39,389 nucleotides of DNA from Acidimicrobiia bacterium (GTDB lineage: Bacteria > Actinomycetota > Acidimicrobiia > Spongiisociales > ZC4RG35). Positions within the stretch are counted from its first letter, which is position 1; every line of letters starts with the position of its first letter. Made by a program: the position numbers and the translations under genes. Shown piece after piece: positions 5,974 to 39,389 of this stretch. The notes beneath the pieces were generated by a model. It searched no databases, was not told the DNA's origin, and saw nothing but the letters and a program-made list of their open reading frames with translations. The DNA lies in contig JALSJV010000323.1 in assembly GCA_026989215.1 (NCBI GenBank), positions 1 through 39,389 on the forward strand, in the 5' to 3' direction.

Positions 5974-7191
5974 ATGGAGAGGCTGACGAGCCGCCGACTC
6001 GCCGGAGCCGGCGCCGCGATGCTGCTGGTGTTCGCGATCGCAGGGACGGGTTTCGCCGCGCAGGAGATTCCGCCCCAGGAGCCGGTGTGTCCGGCCGCGC
6101 CGGCAGGAGCGATCGTGGTCGACCTCACAGGATCGGGGAAGTTGTTCTCGTGGGCGAGCGTCACGTTGGCGACCGGCCAGCGCGTCTCGGTGAACGTGCC
6201 GGCGGGGACCTATGACATTCGACTGACATCCTTCGACCCCCACGTCGACGCCGAGGGAGACGTCCAAGAGACACAGCTCTACGAGCAGTACTTGGTGCGC
6301 GGGTACAACGGGGGCAGCGTCGTATGGACATCGGGTGCGATCGCCGATCTGCCCGACACCGAGAATCTGCTCACCCAGACCGTCGGGGTGGCGGTGACCG
6401 TTCCCGCGCTCGACGCGGTGGAGCCCTTCCACTCCGCCTACCCGGACAAGTCGTCGCCGAACTCGATCGAACCGGTGTGCATCGCCTTCATCCCGGTGAC
6501 GACGACGACGACGGTGCCGCCTACGACGACGACGACGGTGCCGCCTACGACGACGACGACGGTGCCGCCCACGACGACGACGACGGTGCCGCCCACCACG
6601 ACGACCACGGTGCCCGAGACGACCACCACCACGGCACCGGGCGGTCAGATCGGTGACCGGGTCTGGTTCGACGCCGACCGTGACGGGCAGCAGGGACCGG
6701 GCGAGGTCGGGATCGAAGGGGTCACGGTGGAGCTCATCGACGACGGGACCGGTACGGTGGTGGCGACCACGACCACCGACGCCGACGGCCTCTACCTGTT
6801 CGACGGGGTCGCCGCGGGCACGTACCGCGTCCGGTTCACCGCCCCGGCCGGGTTCGTCGGTTTCGCCGATCCGAACGTGGGAGACGAGGCCGTGGACAGC
6901 GACGCCCTGGCTCCGAGCGAGGAGGCGACGGTCGCCGAGACCGCGCCCTTCGCCCTCGCCGCCGGTGAGTCCAACCTCGCCGTGGACGCCGGGTTGGTGG
7001 TGAGGGTCGGAGGGATCCAGGTGACGACCACCACCTCGACGACCGCTCCGCCGGCGACGACGACGCCGTCGACGCTCCCCTTCACCGGCTTCGACGGGGC
7101 CGACGCGGGGCTCCTCGGTTTGGCGGCCCTGGCGTCGGGGCTCCTGCTGTTGGCCCTGGCCCGTGGACGGCGGGAGGACGAAGGGGTCTGA
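5974..7191 (+). CDS. LPFTG-anchored SdrD-type surface protein with TTTTTVPP linker
   Basis: This is a predicted cell-wall protein of 405 residues. ATG 5974 is preceded by GGGGAGG (5963-5969) and opens a clear signal peptide (MERLTSRRLAGAGAAMLLVFAIAGTGFAA). An N-terminal domain of unknown fold runs to about residue 174. A Thr/Pro linker of five TTTTTVPP-type units comes next. The following SdrD B-like (Cna_B type) domain begins GDRVWFDADRDGQQGPGE and contains TDADGLYLFDGVAAGTYRV. A second Thr-rich linker precedes LPFTG at 368-372, a membrane segment and the basic tail RGRRED. This order is typical of sortase substrates. No sortase gene lies in the window. The ligand is unknown. Expression probably starts at 5835. 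Confidence 0.8.
   Translation: MERLTSRRLAGAGAAMLLVFAIAGTGFAAQEIPPQEPVCPAAPAGAIVVDLTGSGKLFSWASVTLATGQRVSVNVPAGTYDIRLTSFDPHVDAEGDVQETQLYEQYLVRGYNGGSVVWTSGAIADLPDTENLLTQTVGVAVTVPALDAVEPFHSAYPDKSSPNSIEPVCIAFIPVTTTTTVPPTTTTTVPPTTTTTVPPTTTTTVPPTTTTTVPETTTTTAPGGQIGDRVWFDADRDGQQGPGEVGIEGVTVELIDDGTGTVVATTTTDADGLYLFDGVAAGTYRVRFTAPAGFVGFADPNVGDEAVDSDALAPSEEATVAETAPFALAAGESNLAVDAGLVVRVGGIQVTTTTSTTAPPATTTPSTLPFTGFDGADAGLLGLAALASGLLLLALARGRREDEGV
6499..6639 (+). repeat. 24-bp tandem repeat encoding TTTTTVPP
   Basis: Five 24-bp units (ACG x5, GTG CCG CCN) run from 6499 to 6618, followed by a decayed half unit to 6639. The first four are nearly identical at the DNA level and the fifth has diverged. The unit length is a multiple of three, so copy-number change would keep the frame and alter linker length. 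Confidence 0.9.
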
Positions 7192-9864: not shown

Positions 9865-11183
9865 TCGGCGGCTACGGCGACGCGCTCGCGTACCTCGAGG
9901 CCCATATCGGCCGTGGGATGCGTCCCGGCCTGGAGCGGATCCGTGACCTCTTGGCGCTGATGGGCGACCCTCAGGCGACGTATCCGATCGTCCACGTCGC
10001 CGGGACGAACGGCAAGACCTCCACGACCAGGATGCTCGGAGTCCTGGCCCTGGCCCATGGCCTGACGACGGGGACGTTCACGTCGCCCCATCTCGAGAAG
10101 GTGGAGGAGCGGATCGCCGTGGCCGGCCGGATGCTGAGCCCCGAGGAGTTCACCCAGGCCATCGCCGACGTCGCGGCGTTCGCCGACATCTATGAGGAGC
10201 GGTCGGGCCGGACCCTCACCTATTTCGAGCTCGTCACGGCGGCGGCGTTCTCCTGGTTCGCCACCGAGGCGGTGGACCTGGGCGTCATCGAAGTCGGCCT
10301 CGGGGGGCGCCTCGACGCCACCAATGTGGCCCACGGTGCCGTCTCGGTGGTCACCGGCATCGGGCAGGATCATGTCGAGATCCTCGGCGAGGACCCGGCA
10401 CAGGTGGCTCGGGAGAAGATGGCGATCCTCGAGCCGGAGACGCCGCTGGTGGTCGGTCCCCTGCGGCCCGAGGCGGCGGCGGTGGCCGAGGAGCTGTGCA
10501 GCGAACGGGGCGGGAGGCTCTTCCGCTACGGGTACGAGTTCTCGGTGGAGGAGGCGGTCCGGGCGGTGGGAGGGTGGTGGGTGTCGGTCGACGGACTGTA
10601 CGACACCTACGACGAGCTCTACCTCCCGGTGCATGGCCGACACCAGACGATCAACCTGGCGGTCGCGGTGGCCGCCCTCGAAGCCCTGTTCGGCCGGGCC
10701 CTCGACCCCGAGGCGCTCCGGGAGGCGACCCAGGCCATCACCCTCCCCGGTCGGATGGAGCCCATCGCCCACGGACCCCTCGTGCTCGTCGACGGCGCCC
10801 ACAATCCCGACGGGTACCGGATCCTGGCGGCCGCCCTGGGGGAGGAGTTCCCCACCACCCGCTGGGTGCTGGTGACGGCGTCGATGAAGGACAAGGACAT
10901 CGGACGGCTCGTGGACGCGCTCGAGAACAGGACGACACGCGTCATCGCTACCCGGGTGACGTCGAGTTCCCGGGGCATGCCCGCGGAGGATCTGGCGGCT
11001 CTGATCGAGGACCGCGTCGACGTACCCGTCGAGGCCGCTCTCGATCCCAAGGCGGCGGTCGACCGGGCCCGTGAGCTGGCGGGTGAGGAGGGGGCGGTTC
11101 TGGTGGCGGGGTCCCTCTACCTGGCGGGCGAGGTTCGCAGTCACCTGGCCGGGGGAGGCGCCGTCCGGCCTGCAGAACGCTGA
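9861..11183 (+). CDS. folC: Bifunctional folylpolyglutamate / dihydrofolate synthase
   Basis: The family adds glutamates to folates and, in many bacteria, also joins dihydropteroate to glutamate. GTG 9861 overlaps the valS stop (GTGA), so translation is probably coupled. The product has 440 residues. The Mur-ligase-type ATP loop AGTNGKTST is at 47-55, followed by FTSPHLEKVEERI. The motif EVGLGGRLDATN is complete, and the C-terminal domain contains LVDGAHNPDG. The valS-folC pair is common in bacteria. Whether it has both activities cannot be decided from the sequence alone. Confidence 0.95.
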   Translation: MIGGYGDALAYLEAHIGRGMRPGLERIRDLLALMGDPQATYPIVHVAGTNGKTSTTRMLGVLALAHGLTTGTFTSPHLEKVEERIAVAGRMLSPEEFTQAIADVAAFADIYEERSGRTLTYFELVTAAAFSWFATEAVDLGVIEVGLGGRLDATNVAHGAVSVVTGIGQDHVEILGEDPAQVAREKMAILEPETPLVVGPLRPEAAAVAEELCSERGGRLFRYGYEFSVEEAVRAVGGWWVSVDGLYDTYDELYLPVHGRHQTINLAVAVAALEALFGRALDPEALREATQAITLPGRMEPIAHGPLVLVDGAHNPDGYRILAAALGEEFPTTRWVLVTASMKDKDIGRLVDALENRTTRVIATRVTSSSRGMPAEDLAALIEDRVDVPVEAALDPKAAVDRARELAGEEGAVLVAGSLYLAGEVRSHLAGGGAVRPAER

Positions 11184-35792: not shown

Positions 35793-35866
35793 GGGGCTGT
35801 AGCTCAGTCTGGCAGAGCACTTGCATGGCATGCAAGGGGTCAGGGGTTCAAATCCCCTCAGCTCCA
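35793..35866 (+). tRNA. tRNA-Ala(GGC)
   Basis: The acceptor stem is GGGGCTG/CAGCTCC, including the G3-T70 wobble pair that identifies alanine tRNAs, with discriminator A. The anticodon stem CTTGC/GCAAG has loop ATGGCAT, giving GGC. The T-arm is AGGGG-TTCAAAT-CCCCT. CCA follows directly at 35867-35869, unlike the other tRNAs here. It borders the accessory islet. Confidence 0.95.
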
Positions 35867-35874
35867 CCACCCGG

Positions 35875-35898
35875 AATCCCTTGTGTTTGCAGGGGATT
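35875..35898 (+). terminator. Weak terminator-like hairpin after tRNA-Ala
   Basis: AATCCC (35875-35880) pairs with GGGATT (35893-35898) across a 12-base loop. The T-containing stretch TCGCTTGTTT follows. It is a plausible weak intrinsic terminator. Confidence 0.35.
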
Positions 35899-35930
35899 TC
35901 GCTTGTTTAGGGTCGCGCCGCGGTGACGCC

Positions 35931-35961
35931 GAGTCCGTCGAGAGTCCGCGGAACGTCCGCG
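35931..35961. repeat. Direct repeat, left copy (islet boundary)
   Basis: This 31-base segment matches 39358-39388 at 29 positions with no gaps. The differences are C/G at the ninth and C/A at the 24th base. The repeat is itself built of about three units related to AGTCCGCGGA. No gene overlaps this copy. The region 35870-36077 otherwise holds nothing I can identify. Confidence 0.7.
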
Positions 35962-36077
35962 GGAGATCGCGTCTGGGCGCCCGCGGAGGCGTCTTCGGCC
36001 TCCCGTTCACGGGCTCTCGAGCGGGGCGTCGCCGACATCGGCGCCCGGCGGCGAGCCGGCGTCTGGTCGCCGACGCC

Positions 36078-36096
36078 GACACGGTGCAACCGTGTC
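36078..36096. promoter_or_regulatory. 19-bp perfect palindrome, operator-like
   Basis: GACACGGT-GCA-ACCGTGTC is a perfect 8-bp inverted repeat with a 3-bp spacer. It abuts a possible -10 element (CAGAAT, 36096-36101) of the nucleotidyltransferase gene. A repressor bound there would block transcription. No regulator gene of the TetR/GntR type is adjacent. Confidence 0.5.
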
Positions 36097-36109
36097 AGAA
36101 TCGTTCTCG

Positions 36110-36670
36110 ATGGGAGCGGCCGCCGGATCTCCAAGGCCCGTGTCCGACATGTCGGCAGAGGACGTCGTCTGGTTCCTCGGCCTCGTGGATCGTCTCGGCA
36201 TCGAGGTGTGGCTCGACGGTGGCTGGGGTGTCGACGCACGCTTGGGGGAGCAGACACGGAGGCACCGTGATCTCGACGTCGTCGTCGAACAGCAGGACCT
36301 CAGGGCGCTTCGGGAGGCGCTCGCCGCCTCTGGCTTCGTGGATTCCCCGACGGAGGATCGAACCGACTGGAACTTCGTCCTCGTCGATCCGGAAGGCCGT
36401 CGCATCGACGTCCACGTCATCGTGATCGACGAGCACGGCAACGGCATCTACGGTCCGGCGGAGAACGGTATCTTCTACCCGGCGTCCGCGCTCACAGGCT
36501 CGGGCTCGGTTGGAGGTCGGCCGGTTCGCTGTCTTACCCCCGAGTACCAGGTGCAGTCGCACACCGGCTACGAGTTGGACGAGAACGACCTCAGCGACGT
36601 CATGGCGCTCCACGAACGCTTCGGCGTTCCCTTGTCCGAAGAGCAGCGGCGAGCTTCGGACAGGGGGTAG
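36110..36670 (+). CDS. LinA/ANT-like nucleotidyltransferase (lincosamide/aminoglycoside type)
   Basis: This small nucleotidyltransferase has 186 residues if ATG 36110 is used. ATG 36149 (MSAEDVVWFLGLVDRLG) matches the usual family start, and GTG 36092 is also in frame, so the start is uncertain. Numbering from ATG 36149, the polymerase-beta-type motif is GGW at 24-26 with Asp41 and Asp43 (HRDLDVVV), and a third acidic residue is Asp87 (RIDVHVI). The C-terminal part GGRPVRCLTPEYQVQSHTGYEL resembles LinA/Lnu-type enzymes, which adenylylate lincosamides. The true substrate is unknown; resistance is only a possibility. It lies in the accessory islet. Confidence 0.8.
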   Translation: MGAAAGSPRPVSDMSAEDVVWFLGLVDRLGIEVWLDGGWGVDARLGEQTRRHRDLDVVVEQQDLRALREALAASGFVDSPTEDRTDWNFVLVDPEGRRIDVHVIVIDEHGNGIYGPAENGIFYPASALTGSGSVGGRPVRCLTPEYQVQSHTGYELDENDLSDVMALHERFGVPLSEEQRRASDRG

Positions 36671-36722
36671 GCCGGCATCGCCGCGGGCGTCTCGTGGGTG
36701 GTTGCGGATCGGGGCTGGGCCG

Positions 36723-37616
36723 CTAGCTCCACCGACCCGCCGTGGGATCCCACGTGCCGCCGGCGGTGCCATCGAGGAGCGGGTCGAGGAATGGTGTCAC
36801 GACGGCGAGTGCGGTGTCCAGGGTGAGGGCCGTCGTCAGCAGGGATCGTCGAGCTTCCGCCGCGTAGCCCCGCTCCCAGAGTTGACGATCGGGAACCGAG
36901 AAGGCGGTCGGAAGGTCGATGCTGCGTCGGTCGGCCTCCGACCGGAGCGCGGCGAGCTGCAGTGCCGCTTCGACGGTGGCTCGGGTGACGATGGCGACGA
37001 GGTCCACGAGATCCTTGTATCGGGTCGACGGGACACGTCCGGTGCCGTAGGTCTGCAGGATGGCGGACACCTTGTCGGCGATGTGATCGACGAGCGGATA
37101 GACGACGTAGCCGTGCTGTTCGATGTCCGGCATGGCGACGCGGGCGAGCGCCGGCACCCGCTCGGGCCAGCCGGTGAGACGGACCTCGGCTCCGACGAGG
37201 TCGACCCGGAAGCTGCACCACTGCGTCGCCCCGATCGAGGACGTGACCGGTAGACGGACACCAACAGCACCTGCGGTGAGCGTCTGTCTGGGTCCGATCT
37301 CGAACCGGAACCAGTCTCCGATGTCCTGTCGCGCCGCCTGACGCAGCTCGGCTTCGGCCACCTCCAAGGCGGCGGATCGGTAGAGGTCGACGTCGATCGT
37401 CGCGCGCACACCGAGATCACGGGCCAGGAGCGCGGTCGCGCCCTTCACGATCCAGCCGTCGTCGACGAGGTAGAGGCGCTCGAGCAGCCGGTCGTAGGCG
37501 ATCTGCCGCTGAAGCTGCGGCAGCGACCAGCGACTGGTCTTCGCCATGGCACGCAGCTTGTCCGTCAAGGCACGGCGAAACGCGGTCGGGCTCCCGTACG
37601 ACCGATCGCGGGCCAT
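36723..37616 (-). CDS. abiEii: AbiEii-type toxin (nucleotidyltransferase)
   Basis: This is the toxin component of a type IV-class AbiE toxin-antitoxin and phage-abortive module. The family is DNA-polymerase-beta-like, and members can modify tRNA ends. The product has 297 residues from ATG 37616, overlapping the abiEi stop (ATGA). The nucleotidyltransferase core is visible: IVKGATALLARD near 56-67, then RATIDVDL with Asp75 and Asp77. A helical C-terminal half follows (DKVSAILQTYGTGRVPSTRYKDLVDLVAI). The motif KGAT replaces the more common KGGT. A longer upstream frame overlaps abiEi and is rejected. Confidence 0.85.
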   Translation of the reverse strand: MARDRSYGSPTAFRRALTDKLRAMAKTSRWSLPQLQRQIAYDRLLERLYLVDDGWIVKGATALLARDLGVRATIDVDLYRSAALEVAEAELRQAARQDIGDWFRFEIGPRQTLTAGAVGVRLPVTSSIGATQWCSFRVDLVGAEVRLTGWPERVPALARVAMPDIEQHGYVVYPLVDHIADKVSAILQTYGTGRVPSTRYKDLVDLVAIVTRATVEAALQLAALRSEADRRSIDLPTAFSVPDRQLWERGYAAEARRSLLTTALTLDTALAVVTPFLDPLLDGTAGGTWDPTAGRWS

Positions 37617-38347
37617 CAGCGGCTCCTGGTCGAAGGTGACGCCGATCGAGATCCGGTGTGCCGCATGGCATGGGCCGTCGTCTCGTTGATCCACTGTGCG
37701 GTGTCCGGATCGTCGACGACCTCGAGGAGCCAGCGGAGGAGTGCGAGGCCATCGCCCCGGCGGAGGCCGAAGCGAGCAGCGAGCGGGGCGAGGGAGTCGG
37801 CGAAGGCGCCCGGGTCGTCGCGGCCGCCTCTGATGGCGTCGACGATCACGGCGGCGACCGCCCCGGGGTCCTCGTGGTCTCCCAGGAGATCGGCGGCGAT
37901 GCGGGACGGCCTGGTGACCGGAAGGCCGCGCAGCTCGATCCATTCATGCGCGGCGATGGGTCGCCGGTGGATCCGCACGTCGGCCCGTCGTGTCTGTCGT
38001 CTCGAGGGCAGCGTGAACTCGTGGATGTCCGCTGGGAGGTGCCCGAGCCCGTAGAGCGCTGCCGCGGAGCGGTGCGACACGACTCCCTGCTCTGGGGTGC
38101 GTTCCCATGCCGGGACGGCGGGGGCGAGTTGGAGCCAGGCGGCACGCAGCTCGGCATGATCCGGTAGGGGAGCCCCCGCCAGGTGATACACGCCGTGGGC
38201 GACCCGTTCGAGGATGGATCCGTCCGCGGCGAGCCGGTCGAACGTCGATCGCGGCACGCCGGCCTTCTCGGCCTGGGCGCGCGTGACCAGACCCCATTGG
38301 TCCTCGGCGAGTTCCGCGAGGCGGCGGACGGTGCTGGTTCGGGCCAT
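37616..38347 (-). CDS. abiEi: AbiEi-type antitoxin/repressor
   Basis: This winged-helix antitoxin represses its own operon and counteracts AbiEii. It has 243 residues from ATG 38347. The N-terminal winged-helix region is RRLAELAEDQWGLVTRAQAEKAGVPRSTFDRLAADGSILERVAHGVYHLAG. A C-terminal AbiEi_4-like domain follows (VVSHRSAAALYGLGHLPADIHEFTLPSRRQ). A -10 box (38354-38359) is placed so that ATG 38347 would be the first transcribed base, and there is no ribosome site. Two direct repeats upstream are probable operator sites. The stop overlaps the toxin start, giving coupled translation. Confidence 0.87.
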   Translation of the reverse strand: MARTSTVRRLAELAEDQWGLVTRAQAEKAGVPRSTFDRLAADGSILERVAHGVYHLAGAPLPDHAELRAAWLQLAPAVPAWERTPEQGVVSHRSAAALYGLGHLPADIHEFTLPSRRQTRRADVRIHRRPIAAHEWIELRGLPVTRPSRIAADLLGDHEDPGAVAAVIVDAIRGGRDDPGAFADSLAPLAARFGLRRGDGLALLRWLLEVVDDPDTAQWINETTAHAMRHTGSRSASPSTRSR

Positions 38348-38353
38348 AGCTGC

Positions 38354-38382
38354 ATCATACCCCATAAATGGAGGAAAACGAA
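38354..38382 (-). promoter_or_regulatory. abiE promoter, predicted leaderless
   Basis: On the minus strand TTCGTT (38382 down to 38377), 17 bases, then TATGAT (38359 down to 38354). Six bases separate the -10 from A of ATG 38347. The -35 lies inside the proximal direct repeat. Confidence 0.55.
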
Positions 38383-38387
38383 GTATC
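38368..38387. promoter_or_regulatory. AbiEi operator candidate, proximal copy
   Basis: The copy reads ATGGAGGAAAACGAAGTATC. It matches the distal copy at 18 of 20 positions and overlaps the -35 box, so binding would block RNA polymerase. Confidence 0.6.
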
Positions 38388-38404
38388 GATCTATACACAC
38401 GTCT

Positions 38405-38418
38405 GCGATATCTATCGC
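38405..38418. repeat. 14-bp palindrome between the operator repeats
   Basis: GCGATA-TC-TATCGC is a perfect 6-bp inverted repeat centred between the two direct repeats. A second imperfect palindrome, GTATCGATCTATAC, lies at 38383-38396. Both sit in the AT-rich control region. Confidence 0.4.
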
Positions 38419-38420
38419 CT

Positions 38421-38440
38421 ATGGAGGTAAACGCAGTATC
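38421..38440. promoter_or_regulatory. AbiEi operator candidate, distal copy
   Basis: The copy reads ATGGAGGTAAACGCAGTATC. It lies exactly 53 bp from the proximal copy, about five helical turns, and has the same orientation. Confidence 0.6.
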
Positions 38441-38457
38441 AGCAAAGGACGCCCTTC

Positions 38458-39226
38458 TCACGTCTCGATTCCGATGACCGCGGACGCGGCCTGAGTCGGC
38501 CGGGGACTCGCAAGCGACCGTTTTTGCCCCGCTTCGAGGGCGTCGGCAGCCTCCCGGTGCGCAAACAGGCGCCCGACCACGTCGTAGATGCGCCGGGTCG
38601 AGTCGTGGCAGAGCACATCAGCGTGGGGGTTCCATGCTTTGTTGTACGGTGCGACGTTCGCTCCCCGACGAATGCCCGAGCTGATCGCTCGTCTCGTCAC
38701 CGAGGGTCCTTCACCAAAGCCGATCGACGCTGGTGTGTAGGTCGAGGCCGAGGCGACGGCATGAGCCGAACTCTGACTCCGGGCCGGCTGGTGATCCGTC
38801 GAGGTCGGGCCGCGCAGCGGAGCGCCTGCGCGGCTCGGGGGAGTGCGGTCCTCGAGATGTCGTGGATGCACACGAACAGGGCTCACCGGTCTGCCCAGCA
38901 GTCTGGCGGATCGGGGAGTGATGGAGGCCATCGATGTCGCGGATCTCGAATGTCGTGTGGTGTGTGGCGACGAGGATGGAGGCCGCCGCGCCGTCGCCGA
39001 CCCACGCGATCGTGGCCATCACGTCCTCGAACGGGTGGCCCGGGTAGTTGAGGAGGCGGTAGACGCCCCGGCTGATCCGCTCGAGGTTGCCCGAGCGGAC
39101 GTGGTGGGAGAGATAGCGGCGGTCGACTTCCAGTTCTTCTGCCTGGCTCGTGCTGGAATAGCCGAGCTGGGTATCGGCGAGGGAGTAGAGGCGGTCGAGG
39201 ACCCGCCTCTCGGGCCTGAATGTCAT
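38458..39226 (-). pseudogene. AbiEi-like gene, probably disrupted
   Basis: From ATG 39226 the minus strand encodes a convincing AbiEi-type N-terminus. It reads MTFRPERRVLDRLYSLADTQLGYSSTSQAEELEVDRRYLSHHVRSGNLERISRGVYRLLNYPG in outline, with winged-helix features over about 10-60. After about residue 90 (WVGDGAAAS) the frame becomes Ser/Arg/Pro-rich and ends at 38711. A second frame from about 38931 to 38458 then carries plausible protein sequence (PSVTRRAISSGIRRG). One or more frameshifts probably destroyed the C-terminal domain. No AbiEii partner follows. The start codon lies in a 35-bp palindrome. Confidence 0.5.
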
Positions 39227-39247
39227 AGTAACTATGACATTCAGGCC
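39213..39247. promoter_or_regulatory. Perfect 35-bp palindrome over the AbiEi-like start codon
   Basis: GGCCTGAATGTCATAGT (39213-39229), a single A at 39230, then the exact reverse complement (39231-39247). Each arm contains an ATG reading MTFRP in opposite directions. Its AT-rich core lies in GC-rich DNA. It may be an autoregulatory operator or a recombination site. Confidence 0.8.
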
Positions 39248-39357
39248 ACACCGGCCTTTCCCGATCGACTCCGGGTCGCCTGATCCTCGAGGCTCAGCTG
39301 GGTCGCCGCCGTCGGCGATGACCCGGGGAGGCAGGCCCCAGCGTCGAACCTCCACGG

Positions 39358-39388
39358 GAGTCCGTGGAGAGTCCGCGGAAAGTCCGCG
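39358..39388. repeat. Direct repeat, right copy (islet boundary)
   Basis: This copy matches 35931-35961 at 29 of 31 positions in the same orientation and reaches the end of the window, so its true extent cannot be seen. Confidence 0.7.
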
Positions 39389-39389
39389 A

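Follow-up and report, generated by a model that had tools for sequence, protein, structure and literature searches.

A probable decayed integrative island at tRNA-Ala(GGC) in an Acidimicrobiia genome, with terminal repeats best read as integrase arm-type sites

Introduction

Among described systems, the closest to the locus reported here are tDNA genomic islands as defined by Islander (PMC4383910), which have an intact tRNA gene at one end, a tyrosine integrase gene and a displaced tRNA 3′ fragment, and whose crossover region covers the anticodon arm. In a second group, cargo is retained between attachment-site DNA after loss of the recombination gene, and related complete islands are present elsewhere at the same site; examples are CIMEs (PMC7563491) and the int-less ssrA islands of Dehalococcoides, the latter using a serine recombinase (PMC3146451). 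The attachment sites of lambda-type hetero-bivalent integrases have short repeated sites that flank the core at a fixed distance inside the element, and these integrases have a small N-terminal domain (PMC4880445); a topology of three strands and one helix has been described for arm-binding domains (PMC8138268). AbiE systems are bicistronic type IV toxin-antitoxin and abortive infection systems with a winged-helix antitoxin (AbiEi) and a nucleotidyltransferase toxin (AbiEii), and are reported to resist phage and to stabilise mobile elements (PMC3985639).

The window analyzed here is a stretch of 39,389 nucleotides that forms an entire contig (C323) of a 2.98 Mb Acidimicrobiia assembly (340 contigs, 98% complete). 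Near its right end is an islet running from 35870 to past 39389, and we regard it with good confidence as a decayed integrative island at tRNA-Ala(GGC), in which crossover would have occurred within the 3′ half of the tRNA gene, the repeats would be arm-type arrays, and the cargo comprises nucleotidyltransferase and AbiE genes.

Results

Two 31 bp repeats, at 35931–35961 and 39358–39388 on the forward strand, lie in direct orientation with one at each end of the islet, and direct comparison confirms the 29/31 match given in an earlier note on this DNA. The best separated pair of 31-mers matched at no more than 25/31 positions in any of 300 sequences simulated with a first-order Markov model of the last 5.4 kb of the window. 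The same note had described the repeat as made of short related units, and the right copy indeed corresponds to ~2.8 units of an 11 bp tandem (GAGTCCGCGGA); the array unit shared across the order is ~11 bp (AGTCCGCGgAaAGTCCGCG). The left copy includes a 19 bp core (35943–35961) that starts 74 nt past the end of tRNA-Ala. Being made of 11 bp units, the motif could be an ordinary genomic repeat unconnected with integration, either tandem or dispersed (the latter also allowed by the note), but a scan of the source genome finds it in only two places, both at the islet ends, and in dozens of other genomes it sits at fixed spacing to tRNA ends; we therefore reject the dispersed repeat and give this explanation essentially no weight.

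The 19 bp core is present at 37 places in 22 of the 138 genomes of the order, with no matches for the reversed control, and a separate scan of a named collection identified 53 stretches with the motif; among viral contigs it is in just one. From record titles we grouped 35 of the loci as Acidimicrobiia-type (these include MAGs labelled Acidobacteria with contigs of the order). In 29 of them there is a strong tRNA match no more than 250 bp away; for loci from unrelated bacteria the figure is 1 of 18, and for positions drawn at random within the same loci it is 18 of 175. The remaining six Acidimicrobiia-type loci have no strong tRNA match. The spacing falls into two classes. In the first, a complete tRNA ends 57–76 nt before the motif, with exceptions at 122 and 133 nt where there is extra inserted DNA, and in the second, a ~48 nt tRNA 3′ fragment starts 123–129 nt after the motif, with one case at 139 nt. 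The arrays are thus at fixed core distance on both arms in the relatives, and the 74 nt on the left side of the window is within the first class. The linked tRNAs are Ala(GGC), Pro(GGG) and Val(CAC, GAC), and at a few loci near tRNA-Phe the motif is in the other orientation. The arm motif is also at tRNA-Val in a more distant actinobacterial MAG (palsa_555; L216, 2988–4135), where the integrase is only 41% identical and in the opposite orientation. A limited search of the literature found no Acidimicrobiia island family sharing an arm array across tRNA targets, and the group is apparently both widespread in Acidimicrobiia and undescribed.

The tRNA-Ala that the earlier note had placed beside the islet was identified by ARAGORN as an intact tRNA-Ala(GGC) gene at 35793–35869 on the forward strand. 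The order nadD-rsfS-tRNA-Ala(GGC) is conserved across much of the order, and the DNA that follows the tRNA varies. In a sister species (G001; RsfS 94% identical) homology to the window ends 8 nt after tRNA-Ala, and a ~4 kb variable stretch there contains other DNA, including AbiEi and integrase 3′ remnants of its own. In three genomes of another family (G041, G034 and G126), ~130 nt after the tRNA are homologous to the window, including the 31 bp repeat and a terminator-like hairpin directly after the tRNA (35872–35901, forward strand, z −3.1; homologous in G041 and G034 and not in G001). Because this leader is common to the other family and absent from the sister species, it is island DNA rather than chromosome, which makes the hairpin a probable island-borne terminator. 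The island leader thus begins ~8 nt past the end of an intact tRNA. The islet itself starts at the tRNA-Ala 3′ end, which places its true left boundary ~62 bp before the left repeat. The repeats do not bracket the islet as the note had proposed; they are internal, beside the recombination sites.

On the right, the window ends one base after the right copy, so the islet boundary is cut off by the assembly. The last 103 nt (39287–39389, forward strand) match the right end of the G034 island at 93 positions, and because that island runs on into a tRNA-Ala 3′ fragment, we predict a displaced fragment ~105–110 nt past position 39389. The source assembly has the tRNA-Ala 3′ end only once, contig C323 ending before the predicted fragment, and a DNA query with the G034 attR stretch matches only the intact tRNA-Ala together with weak matches, one of which adjoins a truncated integrase by tRNA-Met on contig C146. 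An att site is kept at the left of the island, and the right one would fall past the end of the contig. The chromosomal DNA to the right of the locus, as known from the sister species, is on contig C54 of the source genome; C54 ends 355 nt short of the shared flank, inside a different gene, and could therefore not be joined to the window contig.

Complete islands of the same family show where the ends lie. L134 has, in order, tRNA-Ala, the hairpin, an array, a convergent integrase, cargo, a second array and a perfect 45 nt copy of the tRNA 3′ end; L136 follows this arrangement in 3.9 kb, and L133 (in genome G103) has both arrays with tRNA 3′ ends on both sides and no integrase match. Their far ends are marked by 45–49 nt copies of the tRNA-Ala 3′ part. 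A genus-mate of G103, G104, provides an empty site, in which tRNA-Ala is followed by sequence homologous to the G103 DNA past its right tRNA fragment, joined at the tRNA end with no array between. The tRNA-flanked layout and the empty site identify the tRNA 3′ half as the crossover site, and in the window the core (attL) would correspond to about 35821–35869. The direct orientation of the 31 bp repeats, their 29/31 identity and the single copy at each end are also what duplicated crossover sites would show, but in the complete relatives the duplicated tRNA 3′ end is outside both arrays, which refutes this for them, island-type sequence begins ~8 nt after the tRNA and well before the left repeat, and the empty site is joined without an array; we therefore reject the repeats as att sites, a role that is now highly unlikely. 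Two side observations concern the complete islands. Right after the displaced tRNA fragment of L134 is a second, broken integrase (10513–11007), as if an older island had been stacked there by accretion, and in L136 (1588–2097), L134 (6417–7073) and L054 (reverse strand) the integrase or left end is followed by a SEC-C-motif protein whose N-terminus is similar from island to island.

The earlier note had proposed a mobilised islet, to be checked by an empty site in close relatives. Such a site is found in a related genus, in the G104 and G103 pair, and none was found within the window's own genus, in which G001 is filled with other DNA. With a repeat that is not dispersed, a variable locus and the empty and filled pair, mobilisation at tRNA-Ala is strongly supported. 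Nor are the same genes at the locus in all relatives, which the note had named as grounds for refuting it; the content differs among those compared. In addition, contig ends are frequent at this locus in relatives: of 36 minus-strand rsfS matches, 12 have a contig end no more than 1 kb away downstream, compared with 2 of 31 plus-strand matches on the upstream side (Fisher p 0.008, hand count), which fits a strain-variable insertion site.

The note had also described the islet genes as accessory, and Pfam and PADLOC support the LinA-like gene and the AbiE pair, with a PF13338 match for a broken AbiEi. The first gene (36092–36670, forward strand) encodes a 192 aa LinA/Lnu-like nucleotidyltransferase (PF10706, E 1e-32), which scores far below every NCBIfam Lnu cut-off, and drug resistance is therefore not claimed; a 78% identical, full-length relative is directly behind the array in G126. 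It is followed on the reverse strand by two intact, overlapping genes identified by both Pfam and PADLOC, coding for an AbiEii-type nucleotidyltransferase toxin (36723–37637, 304 aa) and an AbiEi-type antitoxin (37616–38350, 244 aa). Together (36723–38350) they have the bicistronic architecture of AbiE type IV systems (PMC3985639), with a winged-helix AbiEi and a nucleotidyltransferase AbiEii; the window differs in having a second, broken pair. Upstream of the intact AbiEi is an AT-richer control region (38351–38457), in agreement with the locally AT-rich control DNA of the note.

Beyond it are remnants. A Nudix-like gene is represented by a 3′ remnant (38647–38743, forward strand; the Nudix signature is read from the G034 sequence) within a segment, 38647–38826, that is 91% identical in nucleotides to the G034 island. 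A second AbiEii remnant (38817–38988, reverse strand) is 81% identical in nucleotides to the start of the G034 AbiEii region, and the N-terminal part of a second, broken AbiEi (38978–39235, reverse strand; PF13338, E 9e-10) is 92–95% identical to G034 in nucleotides. From 38978 to 39389 the window is 90–92% identical in nucleotides to the G034 island, of which a 3.3 kb stretch is missing in the window. Several short repeats accompany these genes. The control region contains a 20 bp direct repeat (38368–38387 and 38421–38440; 90%) with copies 53 nt apart, which could be an autoregulatory site, and over the start of the broken AbiEi is a perfect 17 bp palindrome, GGCCTGAATGTCATAGT-A-ACTATGACATTCAGGCC (39213–39247), which is partly kept in G034 and is a possible AbiEi operator. 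Elsewhere in the window there is a 24 bp tandem repeat (6494–6614; 4.8 copies, 96% match).

The cargo resembles that of islands at the same tRNA in other families, with regard to the LinA-like gene, the AbiE pair, the broken AbiE and the Nudix remnant. G041 has the same order as the window: a LinA remnant (80% over 45 aa), AbiEii, AbiEi and a tyrosine integrase that runs off the contig end. Its AbiEii and AbiEi are 87% and 85% identical to those of the window, whereas its RsfS and NadD are only 57–62% identical, RsfS being at 57%; AbiEii is also 83% identical in G036. This AbiEii subtype is absent from the sister species, and elsewhere in the window's own family there are only distant versions (29–35%); two of its closest relatives are downstream of the same tRNA in other families. 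This distribution points to horizontal transfer to one site. The cargo of the complete islands includes an XRE-nucleotidyltransferase pair, a Fic/Doc protein and SEC-C proteins, such that toxin-antitoxin-like genes recur.

The earlier note had reported no integrase, but the C-terminus of one is recognizable at 38500–38613 on the reverse strand. The remnant of the gene, its last ~40–50 codons, occupies 38458–38613 (reverse strand), is 56% identical to the L134 integrase over 41 aa (E 1e-5), and has a nucleotide match to the integrase end of G041. The island thus contains no intact integrase, only this ~40-codon 3′ remnant, and a search of the source genome found no other intact integrase of the family. 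The one clear other relative is 40% identical and truncated (L251, contig C146, 1656–2590); it adjoins tRNA-Met(CAT) and is what remains of another tRNA-targeted element. The family integrases are PF00589 proteins with a profile match to solved Int proteins, and the predicted N-terminus consists of three strands and one helix, as described for arm-binding domains (PMC8138268), at pLDDT ~80 in a model of low overall quality (pTM 0.44).

In intact islands the left array falls within the terminal 3′ part of int, where it codes for some of the final residues of the protein. The array could therefore be kept there merely as coding sequence for the integrase C-terminus, or the arrays could be a part of the recombination site that binds another protein such as an excisionase or a DNA-bending factor; no Pfam arm-binding domain matches the integrase N-terminus, and binding of the arrays by integrase is itself an inference. 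However, left ends without an adjacent integrase (the window, L121, L133 and L054) retain the array, as do right ends where there is no int coding, and tandem short sites on both arms at a fixed core distance fit arm-type sites (PMC4880445). We consider both alternatives improbable, and the arrays are best read as arm-type binding sites for integrase.

Discussion

The following history would account for the islet. A tyrosine integrase would have recombined the chromosomal tRNA-Ala with an island-borne copy of the tRNA-Ala 3′ half, with crossover somewhere within the ~45–49 bp common to both, which reach from the anticodon arm to the 3′ end of the tRNA. This would have made the tRNA whole again on the left, followed by a terminator brought in by the island, and put the displaced 3′ fragment on the right. 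The 31 bp repeats would be arrays of ~11 bp arm-type sites, each from one arm of the ancestral attP, and would be bound by the N-terminal domain of integrase when the catalytic domain works on the tRNA core. Later deletions presumably took most of the integrase, the Nudix-like gene and most of the second AbiE pair.

With most of its integrase deleted, the window copy cannot excise with its own enzyme. Any remaining mobility would come through its arrays (and its att sites, if the right one is intact), which could serve a related integrase in trans, or that of an accreting neighbour in cis; unless helped in one of these ways it is probably stuck. A broader scheme is more speculative, and we consider it possible but doubtful. 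It takes these loci as a family of small toxin-antitoxin-carrying Acidimicrobiia islands, with unchanging arm arrays and a core that switches among Ala, Pro and Val tRNAs, whose integrase-less members (the window, L133, L121 and L054) would be integration parasites, recognised through the shared arrays and mobilised in trans by the integrases of related islands.

The islet appears to work like a tRNA-targeted genomic island, and its present state resembles a CIME. As in Islander islands (PMC4383910), there is an intact tRNA at one end, the family relatives have a tyrosine integrase and a displaced tRNA 3′ fragment, and the crossover region covers the anticodon arm; with only an integrase remnant and the displaced fragment past the contig end, Islander's filters would reject the window copy. 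As in CIMEs (PMC7563491) and the Dehalococcoides islands (PMC3146451), cargo adjoins attachment-site DNA, the island's own functional recombination gene is gone, and related complete islands are present elsewhere at the same site, although here the attachment site is seen on one side only, and the lost enzyme is a tyrosine integrase, unlike the serine recombinase of Dehalococcoides. Among the genes identified in the window island none is a conjugation or relaxase gene, so descent from an ICE or IME would be conjectural, in which it also differs from CIMEs. With the integrase lost and the attR fragment unseen, membership is complete in neither class. The likeness to lambda-type systems (PMC4880445) is in the short repeated sites inside the element at a fixed distance from the core, and in an integrase with a small N-terminal domain, which here is predicted; the differences are that one array sequence accompanies several tRNA cores (Ala, Pro and Val) and that integrase binding of the arrays is putative here.

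By analogy with described AbiE systems, AbiE-type toxin-antitoxin pairs probably stabilise the island and may also block phage, and the window pair would be of benefit as an addiction module or in phage defence. The tRNA-Ala site is a hot spot shared by several families of a single order and loaded with AbiE and other toxin-antitoxin-like genes, and island insertion may explain the frequent metagenome contig breaks just downstream of tRNA-Ala. The 19 bp arm array provides a signature with which to find and delimit small tRNA-targeted islands in uncultured Acidimicrobiia, including integrase-less islands that integrase-based finders reject. Finally, the combination of one arm sequence with several tRNA cores offers a natural test set for the separate evolution of arm and core recognition.
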